From contig JAQYAH010000005.1 of NCBI GenBank assembly GCA_029227635.1, forward strand, positions 103,533-167,532: DNA of 64,000 bases, given 5' to 3'. Position numbers and translations under genes: made by a program. Within the stretch, counting starts at the first letter, position 1; every line of letters starts with the position of its first letter. The notes beneath the pieces were generated by a model, which saw nothing but the letters and a program-made list of their open reading frames with translations, was not told where the DNA came from and searched no databases. Source of the DNA: Clostridiales bacterium (lineage in GTDB: Bacteria > Bacillota > Clostridia > Lachnospirales > Lachnospiraceae). Shown here one piece after another: positions 25,730 through 36,436 of the stretch.

Positions 25730-27127
25730 CTAATTTATTTTATCGTTTTCGTTGATTGATCTGCCGTTTAAGGCAATATAATCGTAGTTTGCAATGCCGT
25801 AGGCCATGCCCTCATCTACTATACAATATTCTGAGTTTTCTGCAAGTACATGTATCTGTTTGAATACTGCATAGCCTTTGTTGATATTATAAACTCCTTT
25901 CAAAGACCCCGTCTCACTTATCTTGAACTTATCAGTGGACTCCGGCTTTACAAGTACTGCATCTGCCGGGACTTCAAGAGGATCCAGATATACTACTCCA
26001 TTGTTCGAATCGTACTGATAGACTTCCACTGACTGATATGTAGATCCGCCTGTCTTATTGGGATCCAGAATGATAATTCCGTTGCTGGAACTTTCAGGTG
26101 GATTCAGCAGATACTCATAAGGTACCAGGTAGAATTCTTTCTCTACCACTGCTGTTTGTGGAATCTTTAGACCGGTCTCATTCTGAAGTATCAGGGAAAC
26201 ATTTAGAAATCGGTCATTGATATATCGAACCATACCTTCTGAAAATGAAATTACAGCAACCTGTTTCTTGTCTATTTCCCGGAGCTCAAGGCTTCCCCAA
26301 AGCTTTATATCGTCTTTATGAAATTGAACCTGGATTTCTGTAATCTCATTGCTTTTCAGATAATCAAATGTATCATCGTCCAGAATAAAAGCCAACTCCC
26401 AGTTTTCACTGGTTATGACTTTGAATACTTCATCTCCTGCTTCTTTGTCAGTATTCTTTCGCAGATCCCGATTGTCATATTTCTCTCTCTCAATATCGCC
26501 TATGGTGAGATTGTCGGGGGTGACTTTCTCATAACCATCTGTGTGATAAGCAACTATTCCATCCACCGGTGCTGCTTCAATGTTAAAGTATTCTTGATTC
26601 TCTGTAACTATTGTGTTCAGAGAATCCCCACCATCAGTATTTTGAAGGTCCATGATCATACTGTTGAGCTGTTGTTTAAACCCATATACTGAGTCAAAGG
26701 CGTCGGCGCTGAACCCTTCCTGGAAAGATGAGATGGAGTCGATAAGACCAAGGTAGTCTTCAGTAGTGAGCATATCTATCTCTTCTGTCCCGGAGCTATC
26801 GAGAACATCTGAGTGAGAACCATCCAGGTCAGTTACACATATAATACTACCTTTACGTACCTTGGAATCATCAGGTTGAAAATATGAAACCTTACCACTC
26901 TCTCCTGCAGTCACTACAGTCTCTTCTCTTAATGCCAGTGCTGAAAAAGAATAAGACTTGGACAAAGTTCCGGTTCTGACTTCATAAGCAGTGACTGGAT
27001 CCTTAAGCACATACAAAATAATTGAAGCGATCAGGTATATCAGTATCGCTCCAAAAATGATCAATATGTAATTTGTATTCCACGAATTGTGAGGACGGGA
27101 AAACCGCTGCTTCTTACTTCCTGACAT
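25730..27127 (-). CDS. HlyD-like / membrane-anchored protein of unknown function
   Basis: N-terminal TM, biotinyl-lipoyl-like segment (ALREETVVTAGESGKVSYFQPDDSKVRKGSIICV); adjacent to yggS/sepF. Confidence 0.65.
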   Translation of the reverse strand: MSGSKKQRFSRPHNSWNTNYILIIFGAILIYLIASIILYVLKDPVTAYEVRTGTLSKSYSFSALALREETVVTAGESGKVSYFQPDDSKVRKGSIICVTDLDGSHSDVLDSSGTEEIDMLTTEDYLGLIDSISSFQEGFSADAFDSVYGFKQQLNSMIMDLQNTDGGDSLNTIVTENQEYFNIEAAPVDGIVAYHTDGYEKVTPDNLTIGDIEREKYDNRDLRKNTDKEAGDEVFKVITSENWELAFILDDDTFDYLKSNEITEIQVQFHKDDIKLWGSLELREIDKKQVAVISFSEGMVRYINDRFLNVSLILQNETGLKIPQTAVVEKEFYLVPYEYLLNPPESSSNGIIILDPNKTGGSTYQSVEVYQYDSNNGVVYLDPLEVPADAVLVKPESTDKFKISETGSLKGVYNINKGYAVFKQIHVLAENSEYCIVDEGMAYGIANYDYIALNGRSINENDKIN

Positions 27128-27205: not shown

Positions 27206-27625
27206 TTAAAGAGATGCTGCAATGCTGTCTTTCAACTCAGCAGGAATTGCGTTCTCGTCAAGACCAACGCTAATAACAAATCTTACATTGAACTCTCTTC
27301 CTACTTCATCCAAACGTTTCATTGTTGCAGTGATATCCTTTCCTTCGAGACAAGCAAGCTTAAGGAAGGAATCAATAAGGATTATTTCAAGGTCTCTGTC
27401 CTGGGATAACAAACCGAGAACAAAACCAATAAACTCTTCATTAGATTTTACATTATACTGTTTTACATCAATAAGACGAATGCGGTTGTTGAGCTCGTAC
27501 ATGTGACTCTTGCCCTTATCGAGAAATGCGATATTTCCGTCAACCTTTCCAATCTCATTAGATGCAACATCTAAAAGATACTTAGTCTTACCTGTACCAT
27601 TAGATCCAACAATCATTTCAAGCAT
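27206..27625 (-). CDS. Small P-loop NTPase of unknown function
   Basis: Walker A GSNGTGKT at N-terminus; Walker B-like LEIILID; only 139 aa. Confidence 0.72.
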   Translation of the reverse strand: MLEMIVGSNGTGKTKYLLDVASNEIGKVDGNIAFLDKGKSHMYELNNRIRLIDVKQYNVKSNEEFIGFVLGLLSQDRDLEIILIDSFLKLACLEGKDITATMKRLDEVGREFNVRFVISVGLDENAIPAELKDSIAASL

Positions 27626-27716: not shown

Positions 27717-28748
27717 CTAGGATTCGGGGATTGCTTCCATAAGCTCCGTCATCTCTCTGTAAAGGGATGTCTTATTGTCAGCATTCAAAACCACGGAAAT
27801 ATAGGGGTTTCCACTATTGTCTCTGGACAAAAGTACGAGGCAGGCCCCCGCCTCATCTGTGGTTCCGGTCTTACCGCCCATGACTGTTACATTGGAAGGC
27901 AGGTCTACTATACCCTTAAAATAATAGTTTGTTGCTTCCCACTCTTTTAATACCTGTGATCCGTTCTCTCTCGTAATGGTCCCTGTGTATGAAGGAGTGT
28001 CAATAATCGTATTGAACGTATCATACTTGATACACTCATTAAAGATCAGGTAAAGATCATATGCAGTAGTATAATGCTCTTCATCATGGAGTCCATGCGA
28101 GTTTACAAAGTGAGTTCCTGTGCATAAGAGTTCTTCTGCGGTATCATTCATAAGAGCGGCAAAAGACTCCTCAGAGCCTGCAATATGCTCCGCAAGAGCA
28201 AGTGCAGCATCATTTCCCGAGGCAAGCATTAAAGCGTAAAGCATATCAAGAACGGTGACCTGATCTCCAACTTTAAGTCCTGCAACTGACGAATCTTTGT
28301 CAAGATTCTCAAGATTCGGGCTCACGGTTACGATCTCATCCATATCACACATTTTGAGAGCAAGAAGGCAGGTCATAAGCTTTGTAGTGCTGGCGGGATA
28401 CTGTTTAGTAAAAATTCCGTTGGCTTCCAGCACTTTTTCATTTGTAACATCAAAAAGACCTGTCGCACCGGAAACACCATTCTGTTCATATCCGCTTATT
28501 GATACGTCTGTAGATGTAACACAGAGATGATTGGAAACCGAGTAAGGATCAGGATAAAGATATTCTGCTTCGTAACTTGACATAGCCAGATAGCTTCTCT
28601 GTTCGGGAGTCAACTCCTCCTCTTTGGAGCCTAAAAGCGAACAACCACTGAGATTCAGACACAGAAGTGCTGTAATAAATACCGCTGCTATTCTATTAAA
28701 AAGATTTCTACTTATATATTTCACGCCAATCAAGATCTCCCCGGTCAA
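27717..28748 (-). CDS. dacA: D-alanyl-D-alanine carboxypeptidase (PBP5-like) with lipobox; GTG start at 28724 also plausible
   Basis: SxxK (PASTTKLM), SGN (ASGNDAALALAEH), KTG (GGKTGTTDEAG); CLNLSGC lipobox. Confidence 0.9.
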   Translation of the reverse strand: MTGEILIGVKYISRNLFNRIAAVFITALLCLNLSGCSLLGSKEEELTPEQRSYLAMSSYEAEYLYPDPYSVSNHLCVTSTDVSISGYEQNGVSGATGLFDVTNEKVLEANGIFTKQYPASTTKLMTCLLALKMCDMDEIVTVSPNLENLDKDSSVAGLKVGDQVTVLDMLYALMLASGNDAALALAEHIAGSEESFAALMNDTAEELLCTGTHFVNSHGLHDEEHYTTAYDLYLIFNECIKYDTFNTIIDTPSYTGTITRENGSQVLKEWEATNYYFKGIVDLPSNVTVMGGKTGTTDEAGACLVLLSRDNSGNPYISVVLNADNKTSLYREMTELMEAIPES

Positions 28749-29103
28749 GTGCTTTGATCAACAGCTCCGCGGTAGCAATACTGGAAGCAAAAGGAACATT
28801 GTAGGTATCACATAGAAGGTTCATCTTGAGAAAGCCCTGATCCGTGGTTGGATCTATATCCGGGTCTCTGAAAAAAATAACCAAATCTACTTCGTTTTGT
28901 TCGATTCTGGAACACAGCTGGGAGACTCCACCAAGTATCCCGGGGACCACCTTATGGAGAGAGAGGTTTGTCACCTTCTCAATGGAATATGCGGTGGTAT
29001 CAGTTGAAAATATTGTGTGTTTCTTAAGGATGTTTCTGTAAGCAATACAGAAATTCTGCATAAGAACTTTCTTTGTATCGTTTGCAACCAAAACTAGGTT
29101 CAT
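28708..29103 (-). CDS. Methylglyoxal synthase homologue, catalytic residues apparently replaced
   Basis: MGS-like fold sequence MNLVLVANDTKK...IFSTDTTAYSIEKVT...GILGGVSQ...DLVIFFRDP...CDTYNVPFASSIATAELLI. Confidence 0.85.
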   Translation of the reverse strand: MNLVLVANDTKKVLMQNFCIAYRNILKKHTIFSTDTTAYSIEKVTNLSLHKVVPGILGGVSQLCSRIEQNEVDLVIFFRDPDIDPTTDQGFLKMNLLCDTYNVPFASSIATAELLIKALDRGDLDWREIYK

Positions 29104-30233
29104 ACTATTTTCACCTGTCTTTCGTATTTCTGAGGTTTAAGTCCGACGTTGAACACAAGGCCTATTCCAATATATAGACTCACAAGAGATGTAAGACCGT
29201 AGCTTACAAAAGGAAGTGTGAGTCCTGTATTGGGAAATATTCCTGTGGTAACACTCACATTAATGAAGGTCTGAAAACCTATTAGAGCCCCCATTCCGTA
29301 GCATATGAGCCGGCCTGAGTAATCCGGGGCCCGTCTGCCAATGGCAAAACACTCTGTCGTTAACAATAATAACAGAATAATAACAGTGCAACAACCAACA
29401 AAACCTAGCTCTTCTCCCACTACCGCAAAGATAAAGTCTGTCTGTGGCTCGGGTACGAAGTTTCCGTTCTTAAGAGAAGCGACCTCATCGTTGTTTAGTC
29501 CTTTGCCGTGAAGCTGCCCTGAACCTATAGCAATAATAGAATTCTGCTGCTGCATTCCTTCATCCGTCTTGTATTCCTCAGGATTCAGCCAGGCAACGAT
29601 TCTTGTGTGCTGATACTTGGGCAAAAAAGTCTCACCGGGAACTGTGTTTGCAGCATATACAACCACAGCCACCACAAGGGGGACTGCTACAGCAAGTATC
29701 GTTCCCACAATTCTGTAGGAAAGTCCCGCCATAAAGATCATAGTGCAAAAGATCAAAGCTACCACGATCGTTGTGGAAAGGTCTGGTTGAGTGAGAATCA
29801 GAAGCATAGGAATACCAATGAGTACCACAGATCTGATTATCAGCTTTGGATTATTGATCTCATCAATGTGCAGCTCAAAAAACTTTGCAAAGAATATTAT
29901 CAACAGGATCTTACACAGCTCTGAGGGCTGAAATCTGAAAAATCCAAGGTCTATCCACCGCTGTGCTCCGCCTCCTATGGATCCCATGATTTTCACAAGC
30001 AGCAAAAGGATAATTGCCGCTAGGTATATTAATCTGTAGAATCCGGTTATGAAGTTGTAATCTATTACAGAGACAATAAACATTACCACCAGTCCCAGAA
30101 AAAGGCCCAGCGTCTGAGTCTTTTGCAGAGACTTCTCTGCGCTTCCAATAATTACGATTCCAAATATGGAAATAGACACCGTAAGAAAGAGCAGATAGTA
30201 ATGAAAGCTCTTAAAACTGTATTTAAGATTCAT
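29100..30233 (-). CDS. rodA: Rod shape-determining SEDS protein RodA
   Basis: FtsW/RodA/SpoVE family: GAQRWIDLGFFRFQPSELCKI, QPDLSTTIV, VVGEELGFVGC, LPFVSYGLTS. Confidence 0.95.
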   Translation of the reverse strand: MNLKYSFKSFHYYLLFLTVSISIFGIVIIGSAEKSLQKTQTLGLFLGLVVMFIVSVIDYNFITGFYRLIYLAAIILLLLVKIMGSIGGGAQRWIDLGFFRFQPSELCKILLIIFFAKFFELHIDEINNPKLIIRSVVLIGIPMLLILTQPDLSTTIVVALIFCTMIFMAGLSYRIVGTILAVAVPLVVAVVVYAANTVPGETFLPKYQHTRIVAWLNPEEYKTDEGMQQQNSIIAIGSGQLHGKGLNNDEVASLKNGNFVPEPQTDFIFAVVGEELGFVGCCTVIILLLLLTTECFAIGRRAPDYSGRLICYGMGALIGFQTFINVSVTTGIFPNTGLTLPFVSYGLTSLVSLYIGIGLVFNVGLKPQKYERQVKIV

Positions 30234-30238
30234 TTAGT

Positions 30239-33136
30239 TTAGTCACCACCTGTACCGGATGAAACATCGGAAGCATGGCCATCGATAATATCATCCCGAT
30301 CTCTGAGTTCAAAGTAATAACAAACAATATCCGCACCAATCTCCGCAGGATAAAGGGAAGTATATCCGTTGGCGATTCGTATAGAGAAAGCAATCTGCGG
30401 ATCCTCAAAAGGTGCATAACCTACAAAAAGACAATGATCCGGATGCACTTCACTTTGCTGTGCTGTTCCGGTCTTACCTCCCATCTCAAAACCCAGATCG
30501 TTTATTATCTGAAGAGGTGAGGAGATTTTGACCATCTGTCTCATACCTTCCTGAATAAGCTCCCAGTTCTCCTTGTCCGTTTCAATCTCATTGACAACTG
30601 TAGGCGAATACTTGTTGATAAGTGTTCCGTTGTGATCCGTGAGCTTATAAAGCAGAGACAGCTTGAATACTGTTCCTCCGTTGGCAACCGTAGCTGTGTA
30701 TCTCGCCAGCTGTGCCGTTGTATAGTTGTTTCTGGCCTGTCCGATGGCCGAACGAACCGAGTCTGAATCTGAAACCTGAGGTGCTGCCTCCACAAGCTCA
30801 ATGCCGGACTTCTGATCCAGCCCGAACTGTTCCGCATAATAGGTGAGCTTTTCCACACCTCTGTCACTGGAATACTCTTCTTTATCATTGAGACCCAGCA
30901 TATATCCGATATCAAAGTAGAAGTAATTACAGGAGTTTGCAAGAGCTCCTACTACATCCAATCCTCCGTGTGCGCCGGGGGAGATCCAGCATTTAGGATT
31001 AGGATTAACCTTGGGATAGGTTCCATAGCAGTCAATGATGGTACTTCCGTCTATTACTCCGGAATCAAGTCCTGCAAGGGAAGTCATCATCTTGTAGGTG
31101 GATCCGGGTGCAGTCTTCTCCTGGGTAGCGTTGTTGTAAAGAGGATGAGAGCGGTCATTCACAAGCTTGTAATAATAATTCGTATCCATAGTGTTGGCAA
31201 GCTTGTTGGCATCGTATCCGGGATAGGATACACAGGCCAAAACCTGTCCGTTATTCGGATCTGTTACAACGCAGGAAGCTGTGCAAGGTTCAAGTCCAAG
31301 CTGGGCCGGAGTGATCTCCAGACTATTGATCTTTGACTTCATGAAAGAATAGGGATCCATTGATCCATCTCTTAAAGCGGCAATCGCAGTCTGATCATTA
31401 GCAAGAACACCCTGTTCATAGAGAAGAAGACACACCTTGGAAGCGCTTATTGTTCCGTCCAGTACCATATATTTGTAAAGAATTCGATCAAATGCAGCTT
31501 CATCTTCCAACTCATCATTGAGATACTCATTAATTGCGTCTATGATCTCATTGGAATCAGAGTACTTGCTATTAAGATCGGTGTATTCTTCCAGCAAGGA
31601 GGTATTTACCCAACCACAGGAAATTGCATATGAAAGATAATCGTGAAGACTTATGTCTCCCTCATCTTCCCACTTTTTGTAGGTAGGGTCTGAGAAGTCC
31701 ATCTCGTTCTCATCGAGAATCCCGTTTAGAGTAAGGATATTATCCACCACAAAGCGACAATAGTCCTCCTGAGCTTCTCCCTGATCAGCCACCTTACCGC
31801 TGCTCTTTTTAATCTGTCCGTTGATATATGAGATTACTTCACTTTTTCGCTTTTCATAAATACCAAACACCTCTGCCTGTATCGTACCGGCAGGAGCTTC
31901 CTCAAATTTATTGATATCAAGAACCAGGTTTTCAAACATGGCCGTATAGACATCGCCTATTGGAATGAGGATATTATTGGTATTAGTAGTCTCAGACGCG
32001 TCAAAAGTCATTGCATCTGTAAGCTTCTTCGATATGATTCCCGCGAGCTTCTGCTCCAGGATCTTATAAACCGCAATCTGCAGATCACTGTCAATGGTAA
32101 GATAGAGGTCATTTCCGGCTACCGGATCTATTACCTCACTGGTATCAAGGACAGTTCCCATGTTATCTACATAAAACGTGGTCTTTCCCTTAGTGCCCTG
32201 AAGCACCTGATCCATACTCTGCTCAATTCCGGCCTTACCTACAATATCGTTTCGGGAGTAACTGCTGTCCTGCTCCGATAAGGTTTCATATTCCTCTGTG
32301 GAAATAACACCGGTATATCCGATTACGGAAGAAAAATATTCAGAATTATTGTAGCGTCTCAGCGTTTCCTGAGATACACTGATACCCACCAGCGTATCAG
32401 CATTCTCTTTGACTTCCGCAACGGTCTCATCAGAAACATCCTTAGCCACAGTGGTAACAAGATACTTGGAGTAAGCGATGGTACTCATGGCATATCGCAC
32501 ATTGACAAGCTTTAATGCCGTCTCCTTTCCAAGCTCTTCCATATCGATGTCATATCTCTGATCACTGCAAAGATACTCTATAAGCTTCTCCGGAGTCGAT
32601 TTAGCCTGGGCTTCTGTCAGATCATTATAGCTTCTTGCACCATAGACATCTGCGATAAGACGATGTCTTGAGGTCTCTGATTCTGAAGTGAAGGCAAAGT
32701 TGTTGTTGGTATCCAGGATAATACCAAGATAGGTAACTGTGCTGTCTCCATTCTTTTCAAGGATGTTAAGAAGATCGAGGATGTTTTTGTTCATCTTCTC
32801 GTTCTTCTTTTCATTAGAATATATGTCGAAATCTCCGGTATCTTCTATAGTCACAGAAAATGCCAGTTCATTGTAAGCAAGAAGATTTCCGTTCCTGTCG
32901 TAAATGTTTCCTCGAGTTGCCTTAATCTCCTGAGTCTTCTGTATCTGGAGCTTAAAGTCATCTAGATACTTCTCACCGTTCACTATCTGAAGATAAAAAA
33001 CTCTGGAGATCAGACCGGTAAACATGAGGAATATGACCAGCATGATGATCAGAAACCTTGATTTGAATAGTTTTGAAAATTTATATCTTAAATCATAAAG
33101 CAAAAGTATTCGTTCCTCTCTTACTATCATCGGCAA
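30239..33136 (-). CDS. mrdA: Penicillin-binding protein 2 (class B PBP) with large internal insertion
   Basis: RGNIYDRNGNLLA, APGSTYKMM (Ser), ALANSCNYF (SxN), GGKTGTAQQ (KTG). Confidence 0.94.
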   Translation of the reverse strand: MPMIVREERILLLYDLRYKFSKLFKSRFLIIMLVIFLMFTGLISRVFYLQIVNGEKYLDDFKLQIQKTQEIKATRGNIYDRNGNLLAYNELAFSVTIEDTGDFDIYSNEKKNEKMNKNILDLLNILEKNGDSTVTYLGIILDTNNNFAFTSESETSRHRLIADVYGARSYNDLTEAQAKSTPEKLIEYLCSDQRYDIDMEELGKETALKLVNVRYAMSTIAYSKYLVTTVAKDVSDETVAEVKENADTLVGISVSQETLRRYNNSEYFSSVIGYTGVISTEEYETLSEQDSSYSRNDIVGKAGIEQSMDQVLQGTKGKTTFYVDNMGTVLDTSEVIDPVAGNDLYLTIDSDLQIAVYKILEQKLAGIISKKLTDAMTFDASETTNTNNILIPIGDVYTAMFENLVLDINKFEEAPAGTIQAEVFGIYEKRKSEVISYINGQIKKSSGKVADQGEAQEDYCRFVVDNILTLNGILDENEMDFSDPTYKKWEDEGDISLHDYLSYAISCGWVNTSLLEEYTDLNSKYSDSNEIIDAINEYLNDELEDEAAFDRILYKYMVLDGTISASKVCLLLYEQGVLANDQTAIAALRDGSMDPYSFMKSKINSLEITPAQLGLEPCTASCVVTDPNNGQVLACVSYPGYDANKLANTMDTNYYYKLVNDRSHPLYNNATQEKTAPGSTYKMMTSLAGLDSGVIDGSTIIDCYGTYPKVNPNPKCWISPGAHGGLDVVGALANSCNYFYFDIGYMLGLNDKEEYSSDRGVEKLTYYAEQFGLDQKSGIELVEAAPQVSDSDSVRSAIGQARNNYTTAQLARYTATVANGGTVFKLSLLYKLTDHNGTLINKYSPTVVNEIETDKENWELIQEGMRQMVKISSPLQIINDLGFEMGGKTGTAQQSEVHPDHCLFVGYAPFEDPQIAFSIRIANGYTSLYPAEIGADIVCYYFELRDRDDIIDGHASDVSSGTGGD

Positions 33137-33629
33137 ACTGTTCGATGATCTTAATAAGAATAAAATACAGGGGTATCAGCATGAGTAAAGTGTATACTGT
33201 CTCCGGAATTATTATGTTAAGCAAATAATATCCGAAGTTAAATCGTCCCCTCAAAAGATAAAAAATAAAGTAAACCACCAATCCGTAGGCTATATCACTG
33301 GCACCAACAAAAAGAAAAGGAAGTCTCCAGCTGTCATCATTAAACTTTGATCTCAGTCGTCCGTTAAGGTATCCGATATACAGATATATGAGCATATGAA
33401 TACCTATGTAAGTTCCGAAAAACAGATCCGAGAAAAACCCACAGAACATTCCGGTGATACTGCCATATTTGGGACCCATCTGATATCCCACCACCGCGGT
33501 GATGATAAGCAGGAGATTGGGTGACACCAGAGCTAAGGAAATAGCTTTTAATAATGTGCATTGTAAGAAAAATGCAACAAACGACATGAGGAAAAGCATG
33601 CCGCATCTTTTTGCAATACTTCGCATCAA
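33093..33629 (-). CDS. mreD: Rod shape-determining protein MreD
   Basis: Multi-TM ~178 aa, LVSPNLLLIITAVVGYQMGPKYGSITGMFCGFFSDLFFG; between mreC and PBP2. Confidence 0.9.
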   Translation of the reverse strand: MMRSIAKRCGMLFLMSFVAFFLQCTLLKAISLALVSPNLLLIITAVVGYQMGPKYGSITGMFCGFFSDLFFGTYIGIHMLIYLYIGYLNGRLRSKFNDDSWRLPFLFVGASDIAYGLVVYFIFYLLRGRFNFGYYLLNIIIPETVYTLLMLIPLYFILIKIIEQFADDSKRGTNTFAL

Positions 33630-33644
33630 AAATACTCCTTCACT

Positions 33645-34589
33645 CTACTGCTGAGGTTCGGAATCATTGGATTCATCCATCTGTGCTTTGGTCTGCTTGA
33701 TGATCAGCACCTCTCTTAAGTGCTTGAAATCCGCAGCAGGAGTAATAAATCCGGATCGCGTAAGATTGTTTGAATCCACGTGAATTTCACTGATATACCC
33801 AATAATGAGGCCGGGGAGGTACTTACTGCTGACATGGGAGGTTATCAGTGTATCTCCGATTCTTACGTCACTGTCGTTATTCTCCATGTCAGTAAATGTC
33901 ATTGTTCCGTTGCTTATCTGTTCAATATCACCGTCAACAAAACAAAGATCTGAGGTTGATTCTGTCATAGCACTTACACTGCTGGTATCATCGATAATGG
34001 ATTTGACAGTAGCCCAGTCCGGTCCCGTAGCCACAACAATACCCACAAGACCTTTGCCGGCGATGACATTCATGTCCACCTCTATGCCGTCATTGCTGCC
34101 CTTGTCTATGACAAAAGTACTGAACCAGTTGCTGTTATCGGTACTTATAACATGAGCAGCAGTCTTCTCATACTGAGCAAAAGACGCGTCCAGCTCATAC
34201 AATTCCTGAAGGCGGTCCAGCTCATACTGTCCCTGTTTAAGCTGATCATTTTCAAGCTGCAGCTCATCCACTTGCTTCTTAAGACTCGAATTCTCTTCTT
34301 TGACTGCCTGGAGCGTCTTATAATTCTGAGTCTGGTTTACAAGGAATATCCCGATACGGTTTATTCCCATCTCCATTGGAACAACTGTATAGTTTGCAAT
34401 AAATCTTAACGGCTTAATGGTGGAAGTATCAAAAAATGAGATTCCAAACATCATCAGGCAAAAAGCCGTGCAAATAATAAGAAACCGTCCCGGAGTTATG
34501 GTGTTATTCTTCTTCTTTGAAGAATAGCTGCTCTGGGATTTGATTTTTATATTGAGGAAATCCGGTAGTTTTCTGCGCATTAGATCCAC
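33645..34589 (-). CDS. mreC: Rod shape-determining protein MreC
   Basis: TM + coiled coil + VIAGKGLVGIVVATGPDWATVKSIIDDTSSVSA. Confidence 0.94.
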   Translation of the reverse strand: MDLMRRKLPDFLNIKIKSQSSYSSKKKNNTITPGRFLIICTAFCLMMFGISFFDTSTIKPLRFIANYTVVPMEMGINRIGIFLVNQTQNYKTLQAVKEENSSLKKQVDELQLENDQLKQGQYELDRLQELYELDASFAQYEKTAAHVISTDNSNWFSTFVIDKGSNDGIEVDMNVIAGKGLVGIVVATGPDWATVKSIIDDTSSVSAMTESTSDLCFVDGDIEQISNGTMTFTDMENNDSDVRIGDTLITSHVSSKYLPGLIIGYISEIHVDSNNLTRSGFITPAADFKHLREVLIIKQTKAQMDESNDSEPQQ

Positions 34590-35602
34590 CTGTGTTTTTC
34601 TTCTTGCATTGAATAAGTAAGTCTGTGGAACTCAGGCTGATTCATGATTCTGGAGAGACCCTTGACCTTTGAAAGTCTGGGATCCTTGGCTACATGTACA
34701 GGAATATTGAGTTCCTTTTCTATGAGCAGGTCCAGGTTATTTAGATCTGCGGTTCCTCCGGTAAGATAGAGGCCGTCGTCATAAACTGTATCTGCCATCT
34801 CCTGAGGAAGTTTCTTGAGTACTGATAGAGCCATATCAATAATCTCATCAATAATCGGTCTCATAGCGGTATACACCTCATGAGCTGAGACTCTTATTTC
34901 TCCGGGAAGACCTGTTACCAGGTTTCGTCCGGTCACCATCATATTGTTGTTCTCTATTCCGTAGACACTTCCAAGACCGTTCTTCAGCTGTTCACAGGCA
35001 AAAATACCAAGCTTGAAGTTATATTCCTTACGAATGTAGTTACCGATCGCCTCGTCCAGATCCTTGCCGCCCTTCTTGATCATCCGGGAAATAACAATTC
35101 CCCCTGATGATATGACAGAGTAGACGGTAGAACCGCTTCCGATATTGATTATATACTGAGCTTTCTCGCTATAGGGGTCGAGACCCATTCCGATTCCATC
35201 GGCGATACAAGAAGGTACCGCCATAACCTCTCGGGCCCTGGCTTCCGAGCGCACTAACAGATTGTAGAGAGCTCTCTTCTCTACTTCCGTCAGATCCGTA
35301 GGCACTGCCATGAGATAGTAAGCACTGCGCCGGAGTGTCTGTTTGCCGGAACTCAAAAGTTCGTGAAGCAAAGCCTGCATGGCATTATAATCAGAAATGA
35401 CCCCCTTATTCATAGGGAAAAGTACTTTGATATTTGAAGGAGTCCTCTCATACATAGAGTAAGCCTCGTCTCCAACGGCATAAATCTCTGTTTTGTTTCT
35501 GATGGCGATAGCGTTCTTTAAGACGCTGAACTCATCAAGTTCAGGATCGTATACCTTGATATCGTAAGATCCAAGATCTATTCCAAAATGACTCTTGCCC
35601 AT
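34580..35602 (-). CDS. mreB: MreB-family actin homologue, divergent
   Basis: FGIDLGSYDIKVY, MNKGVISDYNAM, SSGGIVISRMIKKGGKDLDEAIGNYIRKEYN, GRNLVTGLPGEIRVS; upstream of mreC. Confidence 0.92.
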   Translation of the reverse strand: MGKSHFGIDLGSYDIKVYDPELDEFSVLKNAIAIRNKTEIYAVGDEAYSMYERTPSNIKVLFPMNKGVISDYNAMQALLHELLSSGKQTLRRSAYYLMAVPTDLTEVEKRALYNLLVRSEARAREVMAVPSCIADGIGMGLDPYSEKAQYIINIGSGSTVYSVISSGGIVISRMIKKGGKDLDEAIGNYIRKEYNFKLGIFACEQLKNGLGSVYGIENNNMMVTGRNLVTGLPGEIRVSAHEVYTAMRPIIDEIIDMALSVLKKLPQEMADTVYDDGLYLTGGTADLNNLDLLIEKELNIPVHVAKDPRLSKVKGLSRIMNQPEFHRLTYSMQEEKHRWI

Positions 35603-36322
35603 TTAAGCCATACCTTTCTTAATCATTCTGTACTGTGAAATGCTGACATATGTTCCGTCACCGATGACCAGATGATCCACCAGGCGGATTCCTATCAACT
35701 CTCCTGCTTTCTCCAGCTGATCCGTAATATAGACATCCTGACTGCTGGGGGTCGGATCTCCGCTTGGATGATTGTGAATCATAATAATATTAGTTGCATC
35801 AAGCCTTAAAGCTTCCCTGAATATTTCTCTTGGGGAAGCAGGGGTTGCATTTACAGTCCCCTGACTTATGGTGATTTCCCTGATTTTTCGAAGCTTAATA
35901 TCCAGAAGGATCAGTTTCATCTCCTCCCGGTCCTTATGCCTCATCTCTTCCATATAAAAATCGGCAACTGATGAAGGAGAGCTGAAATCAAGCCTGTCAT
36001 TGGCCCTGGCCTTGTGAATCCTCTTGGAGAATTCTGCTACACTTAGAAGCTGACAAGCCTTGACTTTACCGATGCCCCTAAGGCTAATCAGTTCATCATA
36101 GCTTGCATGAAATATTCCGAGAATTCCGGGATAGACTTCATCTTTCATGTGGCAAAGCTTCCTTGCTATCTCCAGAATATTCTCATCCCTGACTCCGGTT
36201 CTAAGGATGATCGCCAAAAGTTCCGAGTCGGTGAGCTGTTCAGGTCCATAGCTGATCAGCTTCTCTAAAGGCCTGTCTTCCGCAGGAATACTGCGTATCA
36301 TGTTCTTTTTGTTATTATCCAT
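35603..36322 (-). CDS. radC: RadC-family JAB/MPN domain protein
   Basis: SIPAEDRPLEKLISYGPEQLTDSELLAIILRTG; JAMM MIHNHPSGDPTPSSQD. Confidence 0.95.
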   Translation of the reverse strand: MDNNKKNMIRSIPAEDRPLEKLISYGPEQLTDSELLAIILRTGVRDENILEIARKLCHMKDEVYPGILGIFHASYDELISLRGIGKVKACQLLSVAEFSKRIHKARANDRLDFSSPSSVADFYMEEMRHKDREEMKLILLDIKLRKIREITISQGTVNATPASPREIFREALRLDATNIIMIHNHPSGDPTPSSQDVYITDQLEKAGELIGIRLVDHLVIGDGTYVSISQYRMIKKGMA

Positions 36323-36436
36323 GCATGTTCCTAACGCTCTTTTATCCCGTACACACACAGATTCAGACTATATTCTAGCACAATTAAAATGGGGTTAATA
36401 GCTAGAGACCCCTTAATTTTTTGTAAAAAAGCTTTG

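Follow-up and report, generated by a model that had tools for sequence, protein, structure and literature searches.

The protein described here is homologous, with no gap over nearly its whole chain, to methylglyoxal synthase (MgsA, EC 4.2.3.3; TIGR00160 and NF003559; PDB 1b93, 6f2c and 2x8w), an enzyme whose E. coli mutants at Asp71 reportedly suffer an approximately thousandfold loss of activity. The C-terminus of the carbamoyl phosphate synthetase CarB is an MGS-like regulatory domain that carries out no MGS chemistry and binds phosphorylated effectors; it has the same fold and offers a known case of an MGS domain that senses ligands without catalysing a reaction, although it sits in a large enzyme, whereas the protein of this locus is free, 131 aa long and far closer in sequence to MgsA. 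In the catalytic enzyme, Asp71 is the base that takes the proton, His19 stabilises O3 and His98 is accessory, while the phosphate is held by the TGTTG loop, Lys23 and Ser65 (PMC7843640). The closest well-studied relative in our alignment is the short-type MgsA of B. subtilis, to which the carbon-flux protein Crh binds as an inhibitor (PMC12291648), showing that an MgsA can work through a protein partner; unlike the protein considered here, it has the full set of catalytic residues, and it is enzymatically active. In the open literature, with subscription journals mostly outside the scope of the search, we found no paper on the loss of catalytic residues in mgsA or on its linkage to rodA.

The window, by which we mean the whole stretch of 64,000 nucleotides that was analysed, comes from a Clostridiales genome of 1.75 Mb in 86 contigs that is 87% complete. 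It contains a rod cluster whose gene order, as read from Pfam matches, is radC-mreB-mreC-mreD-PBP2-rodA-mgsA-like gene-dacA, all on the minus strand:

35603..36358, minus strand, radC, the upstream edge of the rod cluster (PF04002)
34580..35602, minus strand, mreB (PF06723)
33645..34589, minus strand, mreC (PF04085)
33093..33629, minus strand, mreD (PF04093)
30239..33136, minus strand, PBP2, an mrdA-like transpeptidase (PF00905 and PF03717)
29100..30233, minus strand, rodA of the SEDS family (PF01098, 300 bits)
28708..29103, minus strand, mgsA-like gene (open reading frame and translation; NF003559, 90.7 bits; PDB 6f2c, E 8e-26)
27717..28748, minus strand, dacA-like D-Ala-D-Ala carboxypeptidase (Peptidase_S11) downstream of the mgsA-like gene (PF00768, 168 bits)

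The junction sequence shows the mgsA-like start overlapping the rodA stop by 4 nt (ATGA), and the TTG start of the dacA-like reading frame is a mechanical call, the true start probably lying further in. The ends of the mgsA-like reading frame agree exactly with the original prediction, which as an observation holds except for the strand, which is minus. Two more genes of the minus strand lie beyond dacA. Positions 27206-27625 encode a 139-aa protein that matches no Pfam family and begins with a P-loop-like GxxGxGKT, and homologues of it occur directly after rodA at five sampled loci of genomes without the mgsA-like gene and dacA. Downstream of it, positions 25730-27127 encode a HlyD_2-like membrane protein, found in the same order in several relatives and possibly a further part of the cluster. 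No Rfam elements were found in the window.

The mgsA-like gene has an ATG start and its product, of 131 aa, is a divergent methylglyoxal synthase homologue that aligns end to end and unambiguously with solved MgsA structures: the match to PDB 6f2c, an MgsA, runs from residue 1 to residue 129 without a gap (E 8e-26), and E. coli MgsA (1b93) is matched over residues 3-118. It is a free-standing reading frame with no fusion to a carbamoyl phosphate synthetase or AICAR transformylase domain, and is thus neither CarB nor PurH. The motifs that had been read by eye, VANDTKK, STDTTA, GGVSQ and RDPDIDPTTDQGF, are present in the translation, and alignment with E. coli MgsA bears out the four substitutions proposed from them (His19 to Asn8, Asp71 to Val60, His98 to Thr87 and Asp101 to Gly90) as well as the retention of Lys23 as Lys12. 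The active-site motifs of the E. coli and B. subtilis sequences in our alignments agree with the PDB alignments. The codons concerned are located as follows:

29080..29082, minus strand, Asn8, at the position of E. coli His19
29068..29070, minus strand, Lys12, equivalent to E. coli Lys23, a phosphate ligand, kept here and in all 136 members of the family set described below
28990..29004, minus strand, T34-D-T-T-A38, equivalent to the E. coli T45-G49 phosphate loop, with three Thr kept and both Gly replaced
28939..28941, minus strand, Gly55, equivalent to E. coli Gly66, kept
28924..28926, minus strand, Val60, at the position of E. coli Asp71, the catalytic base, lost
28843..28845, minus strand, Thr87, at the position of E. 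coli His98
28834..28836, minus strand, Gly90, at the position of E. coli Asp101

Further changes that had been missed are Gly46 to Asp35, Gly49 to Ala38, Ser65 to Pro54 and Pro67 to Ile56. Unchanged are Asp20 (D9), Lys23 (K12), Thr45 (T34), Thr47 (T36), Thr48 (T37), Gly66 (G55), Gly69, Gly70, Gln73 and Asp91 (D80), so that Lys23, Thr45, Thr47, Thr48, Gly66 and Asp91 are common to MgsA and the window protein, for which the same fold is expected. The Arg150-bearing C-terminal stretch of E. coli MgsA is absent, as it is from the B. subtilis enzyme. An AlphaFold2 model from the single sequence reached a pLDDT of 41, too low to support the pocket. The score against NCBIfam NF003559 (90.7 bits) is above the cut-off of 84, that against the TIGR00160 equivalog (86.4 bits) is below the cut-off of 146.9, and that against Pfam MGS (PF02142; 25.4 bits) is barely above the gathering cut-off of 24.1. 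Genome annotation would call this protein a methylglyoxal synthase, which, judging from its residues, it probably no longer is.

A search of the 87%-complete source genome for a second MgsA-like or MGS-domain gene found none, and a canonical MgsA could lie in the missing 13%. Triosephosphate isomerase is present. No glyoxalase I was found above the cut-off in this genome, the cut-off being a strict one that only 2 of 14 control genomes passed. Neither CarB, for which TIGR01369 scored far below its cut-off, nor any MGS domain of CarB or PurH was found in the same incomplete assembly, and this small-genome species is possibly auxotrophic for pyrimidines and purines.

The window gene was compared with a set of 136 homologues, each taken from a different one of 397 genomes of its family and each encoded immediately after rodA in the same orientation. 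The label Lachnospiraceae-like for this family is our reading of gene content and protein similarity. Since the 136 loci are the best matches to the window protein plus the lowest scorers of the family model, the sample is non-random and its percentages are indicative only. The homologues are 127-139 aa long, exactly 131 aa in 101 of the 136, and a dacA homologue lies downstream in 115. The window gene fits this rodA-linked clade in its length of about 131 aa, its place downstream of rodA on the same strand, its loss of Asp71 and the dacA gene downstream, and the tree puts it inside the clade on a long branch. Asp71 is missing from 130 of the 136 proteins and its loss is thus by no means unique to this strain, whereas the losses of His19, His98 and Asp101, which are retained in 126, 102 and 108 members respectively, are mostly lineage-specific. 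Position 71 is Asp in 6 members, Glu in 72 and non-acidic in 58, where Ala, Val, Lys, Met, Ile, Thr, Gln, Ser, Gly, Asn, Leu and His all occur. Lys23, Thr45, Gly66, Gly69 and Gly70 are present without exception, Thr48 and Gln73 each in 134 of the 136, and 17 of the 131 alignment columns are fully invariant; column 71 ranks 130th of the 131 in conservation, the second most variable, beside the invariant Gly69-Gly70 and close to the near-invariant Gln73. Ser65 is replaced by Ala in 103 members and Pro67 by His in 100. The six close pairs with an estimable dS gave dN/dS values of 0.015-0.070, which are rough because dS was 1.1-2.3. By these measures the rodA-linked protein is under strong selection, though not at the position of the catalytic base.

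A gene positive for NF003559 is found in 375 of the 397 family genomes, and the long canonical form in only 133, so that about two thirds of the genomes are without it; NF003559 would name typical rodA-linked members, the window copy included, methylglyoxal synthase. The idea that genomes devoid of the mgsA-like gene lack the rod machinery had to be rejected, because no mgsA-like gene is detectable in at least six family genomes that do possess rodA and mreC. The protein is therefore not essential to the elongasome, and is useful but dispensable. In several of these genomes rodA is followed directly by the small P-loop gene and an HlyD-like gene, the mgsA-like gene and dacA both being missing. 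We also observed, at thirteen sampled loci in other genomes of the family, a second short and divergent MgsA-like gene that is not linked to rodA and mostly lies upstream of rsmD and coaD. Its product mostly keeps Asp71 (GGDKQ), has Asn at the positions of Asp20 and Asp91, and usually lacks His98, and would be a separate disarmed or altered copy.

The direction of change is supported by the copies outside the family. Rod-linked clostridial genes of the same ancestry keep the canonical residues, with His, Asp, His and Asp at positions 19, 71, 98 and 101 in all 15 rodA-linked MgsA genes sampled there, and the tree, which has few columns and many open forks, nests the family clade among short clostridial MgsA, away from the long canonical form; together these observations indicate that the catalytic base was lost in place from an ordinary MgsA. 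A tree built without the catalytic columns implies at least nine changes of state at position 71, three of them forced by well-supported branches. Asp71 is also missing from 20 sampled loci of 12 other clostridial families, 18 of them beside minD. These non-canonical proteins resemble the rodA-linked ones in their neighbourhood (minD, PBP2) and in the loss at position 71, but differ in their substitutions and, often, in a GG loop that is one residue shorter, and their losses are probably independent. At nine minD-side loci of three other clostridial families this shorter loop reads LGEQQ or LGSQQ in place of LGGDQQ, a distinct way to lose Asp71.

The original prediction took the window copy for a pseudoenzyme or a binder of another ligand. 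The loss of catalytic residues on which it drew is confirmed and extends, at Asp71, to 130 of the 136 members, and pseudoenzyme status is strongly suggested by it. In our opinion the protein probably has no useful MGS activity and has been kept for another role, and it is best read as a ligand-binding protein linked to the rod-cluster genes that has become a pseudoenzyme or, at most, retains a crippled activity. We consider it unlikely that the family protein still works as a weak methylglyoxal synthase, with Glu71, water or another residue as the base, and with a low rate being useful given that methylglyoxal is toxic. Glu, the commonest state at position 71 (72 of 136), could serve as a weak base, His19, His98 and Asp101 are kept in 126, 102 and 108 members, and the NCBI models would still name the members MgsA; however, 58 members have no acid at position 71, a column whose near-maximal variability is unlike that of a working catalytic position, and the window copy has none of the four residues. 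The expectation that genomes with no other MgsA would keep the residues of their rodA-linked copy was also rejected, as at least one of His19, His98 and Asp101 is lost in 39 of the 93 members without a second canonical MgsA, against 10 of the 43 with one. Loss is, if anything, commoner where the copy stands by itself, and this speaks against an enzyme that is weak yet still required.

The window copy is an extreme, fast-evolving member of the family. All four residues are lost in three other sampled members as well, and its nearest neighbours in the tree, two proteins placed there with weak support, also have Val71 and partial losses. The window copy shares a median identity of 0.565 with the other members, against a typical 0.771 (residual rank 2 of 97), whereas the RodA of the window, at 0.525 against 0.510, is unremarkable. 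The mgsA-like gene has thus accelerated by itself; the genus is represented by this genome alone. Two columns invariant in the family, Gly49 and Asn119, are changed. This divergence, and the outright loss of the gene in other lineages, would suit a copy in decay, the function of the family protein being lost in a small-genome lineage, but we doubt this account. The reading frame is intact, of the family's standard length and still overlaps rodA by 4 nt; 34 of the 38 columns conserved at 97% or more are kept, against 8 of 37 variable columns, the pattern of a selected, folded protein and not of a dead gene; and the states shared with the closest relatives suggest that much of the change predates the window species. 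Part of the divergence may nevertheless reflect relaxed selection. A new chemistry on a phosphorylated substrate seems to us quite improbable: the cradle persists beside a remodelled reaction side, with changes that include Ser65 to Ala (103 of 136) and Pro67 to His (100 of 136) in the loop that covers the substrate carbons, and conserved family-specific residues such as Gln27, Glu53, Asn57 and Glu79 (E. coli positions) are absent from the outgroup, but positions 65, 67, 71, 98 and 101 vary within the family, and one new reaction should fix its catalytic set.

The mgsA-like gene derives by vertical descent from the ordinary catalytic enzyme that many Clostridia encode downstream of rodA or of minD. 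Close to the root of the Lachnospiraceae-like family, or right at it, Asp71 gave way to other residues, probably to Glu at first and later to nearly any, whereas strong selection held the fold and the cradle for the phosphate of DHAP (Lys23, Thr45, Thr47, Thr48 and Gly66); from then on methylglyoxal was probably no longer made at a useful rate. The window copy is the furthest along, having lost His19, His98 and Asp101 besides Asp71. The sequences themselves support the homology, the state of each residue, the selection, the direction of change and the order of the genes; the absence of activity, the nature of the ligand and the tie to cell-wall growth are inferred from them. Because the phosphate part is mostly kept and the base given up, we favour the binding of phosphate or a phosphorylated metabolite without turnover. 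Against this ligand stand the replacement of Ser65, mostly by Ala in the family and by Pro in the window, and the cradle of the window copy, which is not intact: Lys23, Thr45, Thr47, Thr48 and Gly66 are present, but Gly46 has become Asp, Gly49 Ala and Ser65 Pro, so that both loop glycines are changed. The protein most likely acts by binding, as a sensor or as a partner, and would be co-produced with RodA and the carboxypeptidase. The role of sensor taken by itself is a tentative proposal, one that we hold to be somewhat doubtful. Gene order is conserved, dacA following in 115 of the 136 loci, and suggests by position an envelope-related output; it is this order that would argue for the metabolic input to cell-wall synthesis proposed in the original prediction. 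A more ambitious proposal, which we advance as speculation and think rather unlikely as a whole, is that the near-universal Lachnospiraceae protein senses a phosphorylated metabolite without catalysis and signals the glycolytic state to the Rod complex (RodA-PBP2-MreBCD), and that MgsA was turned into a regulator in this way on several occasions at this locus in Clostridia.

mgsA annotation is the basis on which methylglyoxal output is attributed to gut and rumen Lachnospiraceae. A methylglyoxal shunt has been proposed in enolase-less Butyrivibrio and Pseudobutyrivibrio partly on the strength of annotated mgsA, in two copies (PMC2914790) or in one (PMC7523725). Nearly all of the sampled rodA-linked copies are without the catalytic base yet above the NCBI cut-off for methylglyoxal synthase. 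Should they be pseudoenzymes, methylglyoxal synthesis would be absent from many of the gut genomes to which it is now ascribed, and the rod-shape cluster would contain a conserved protein still awaiting a function.
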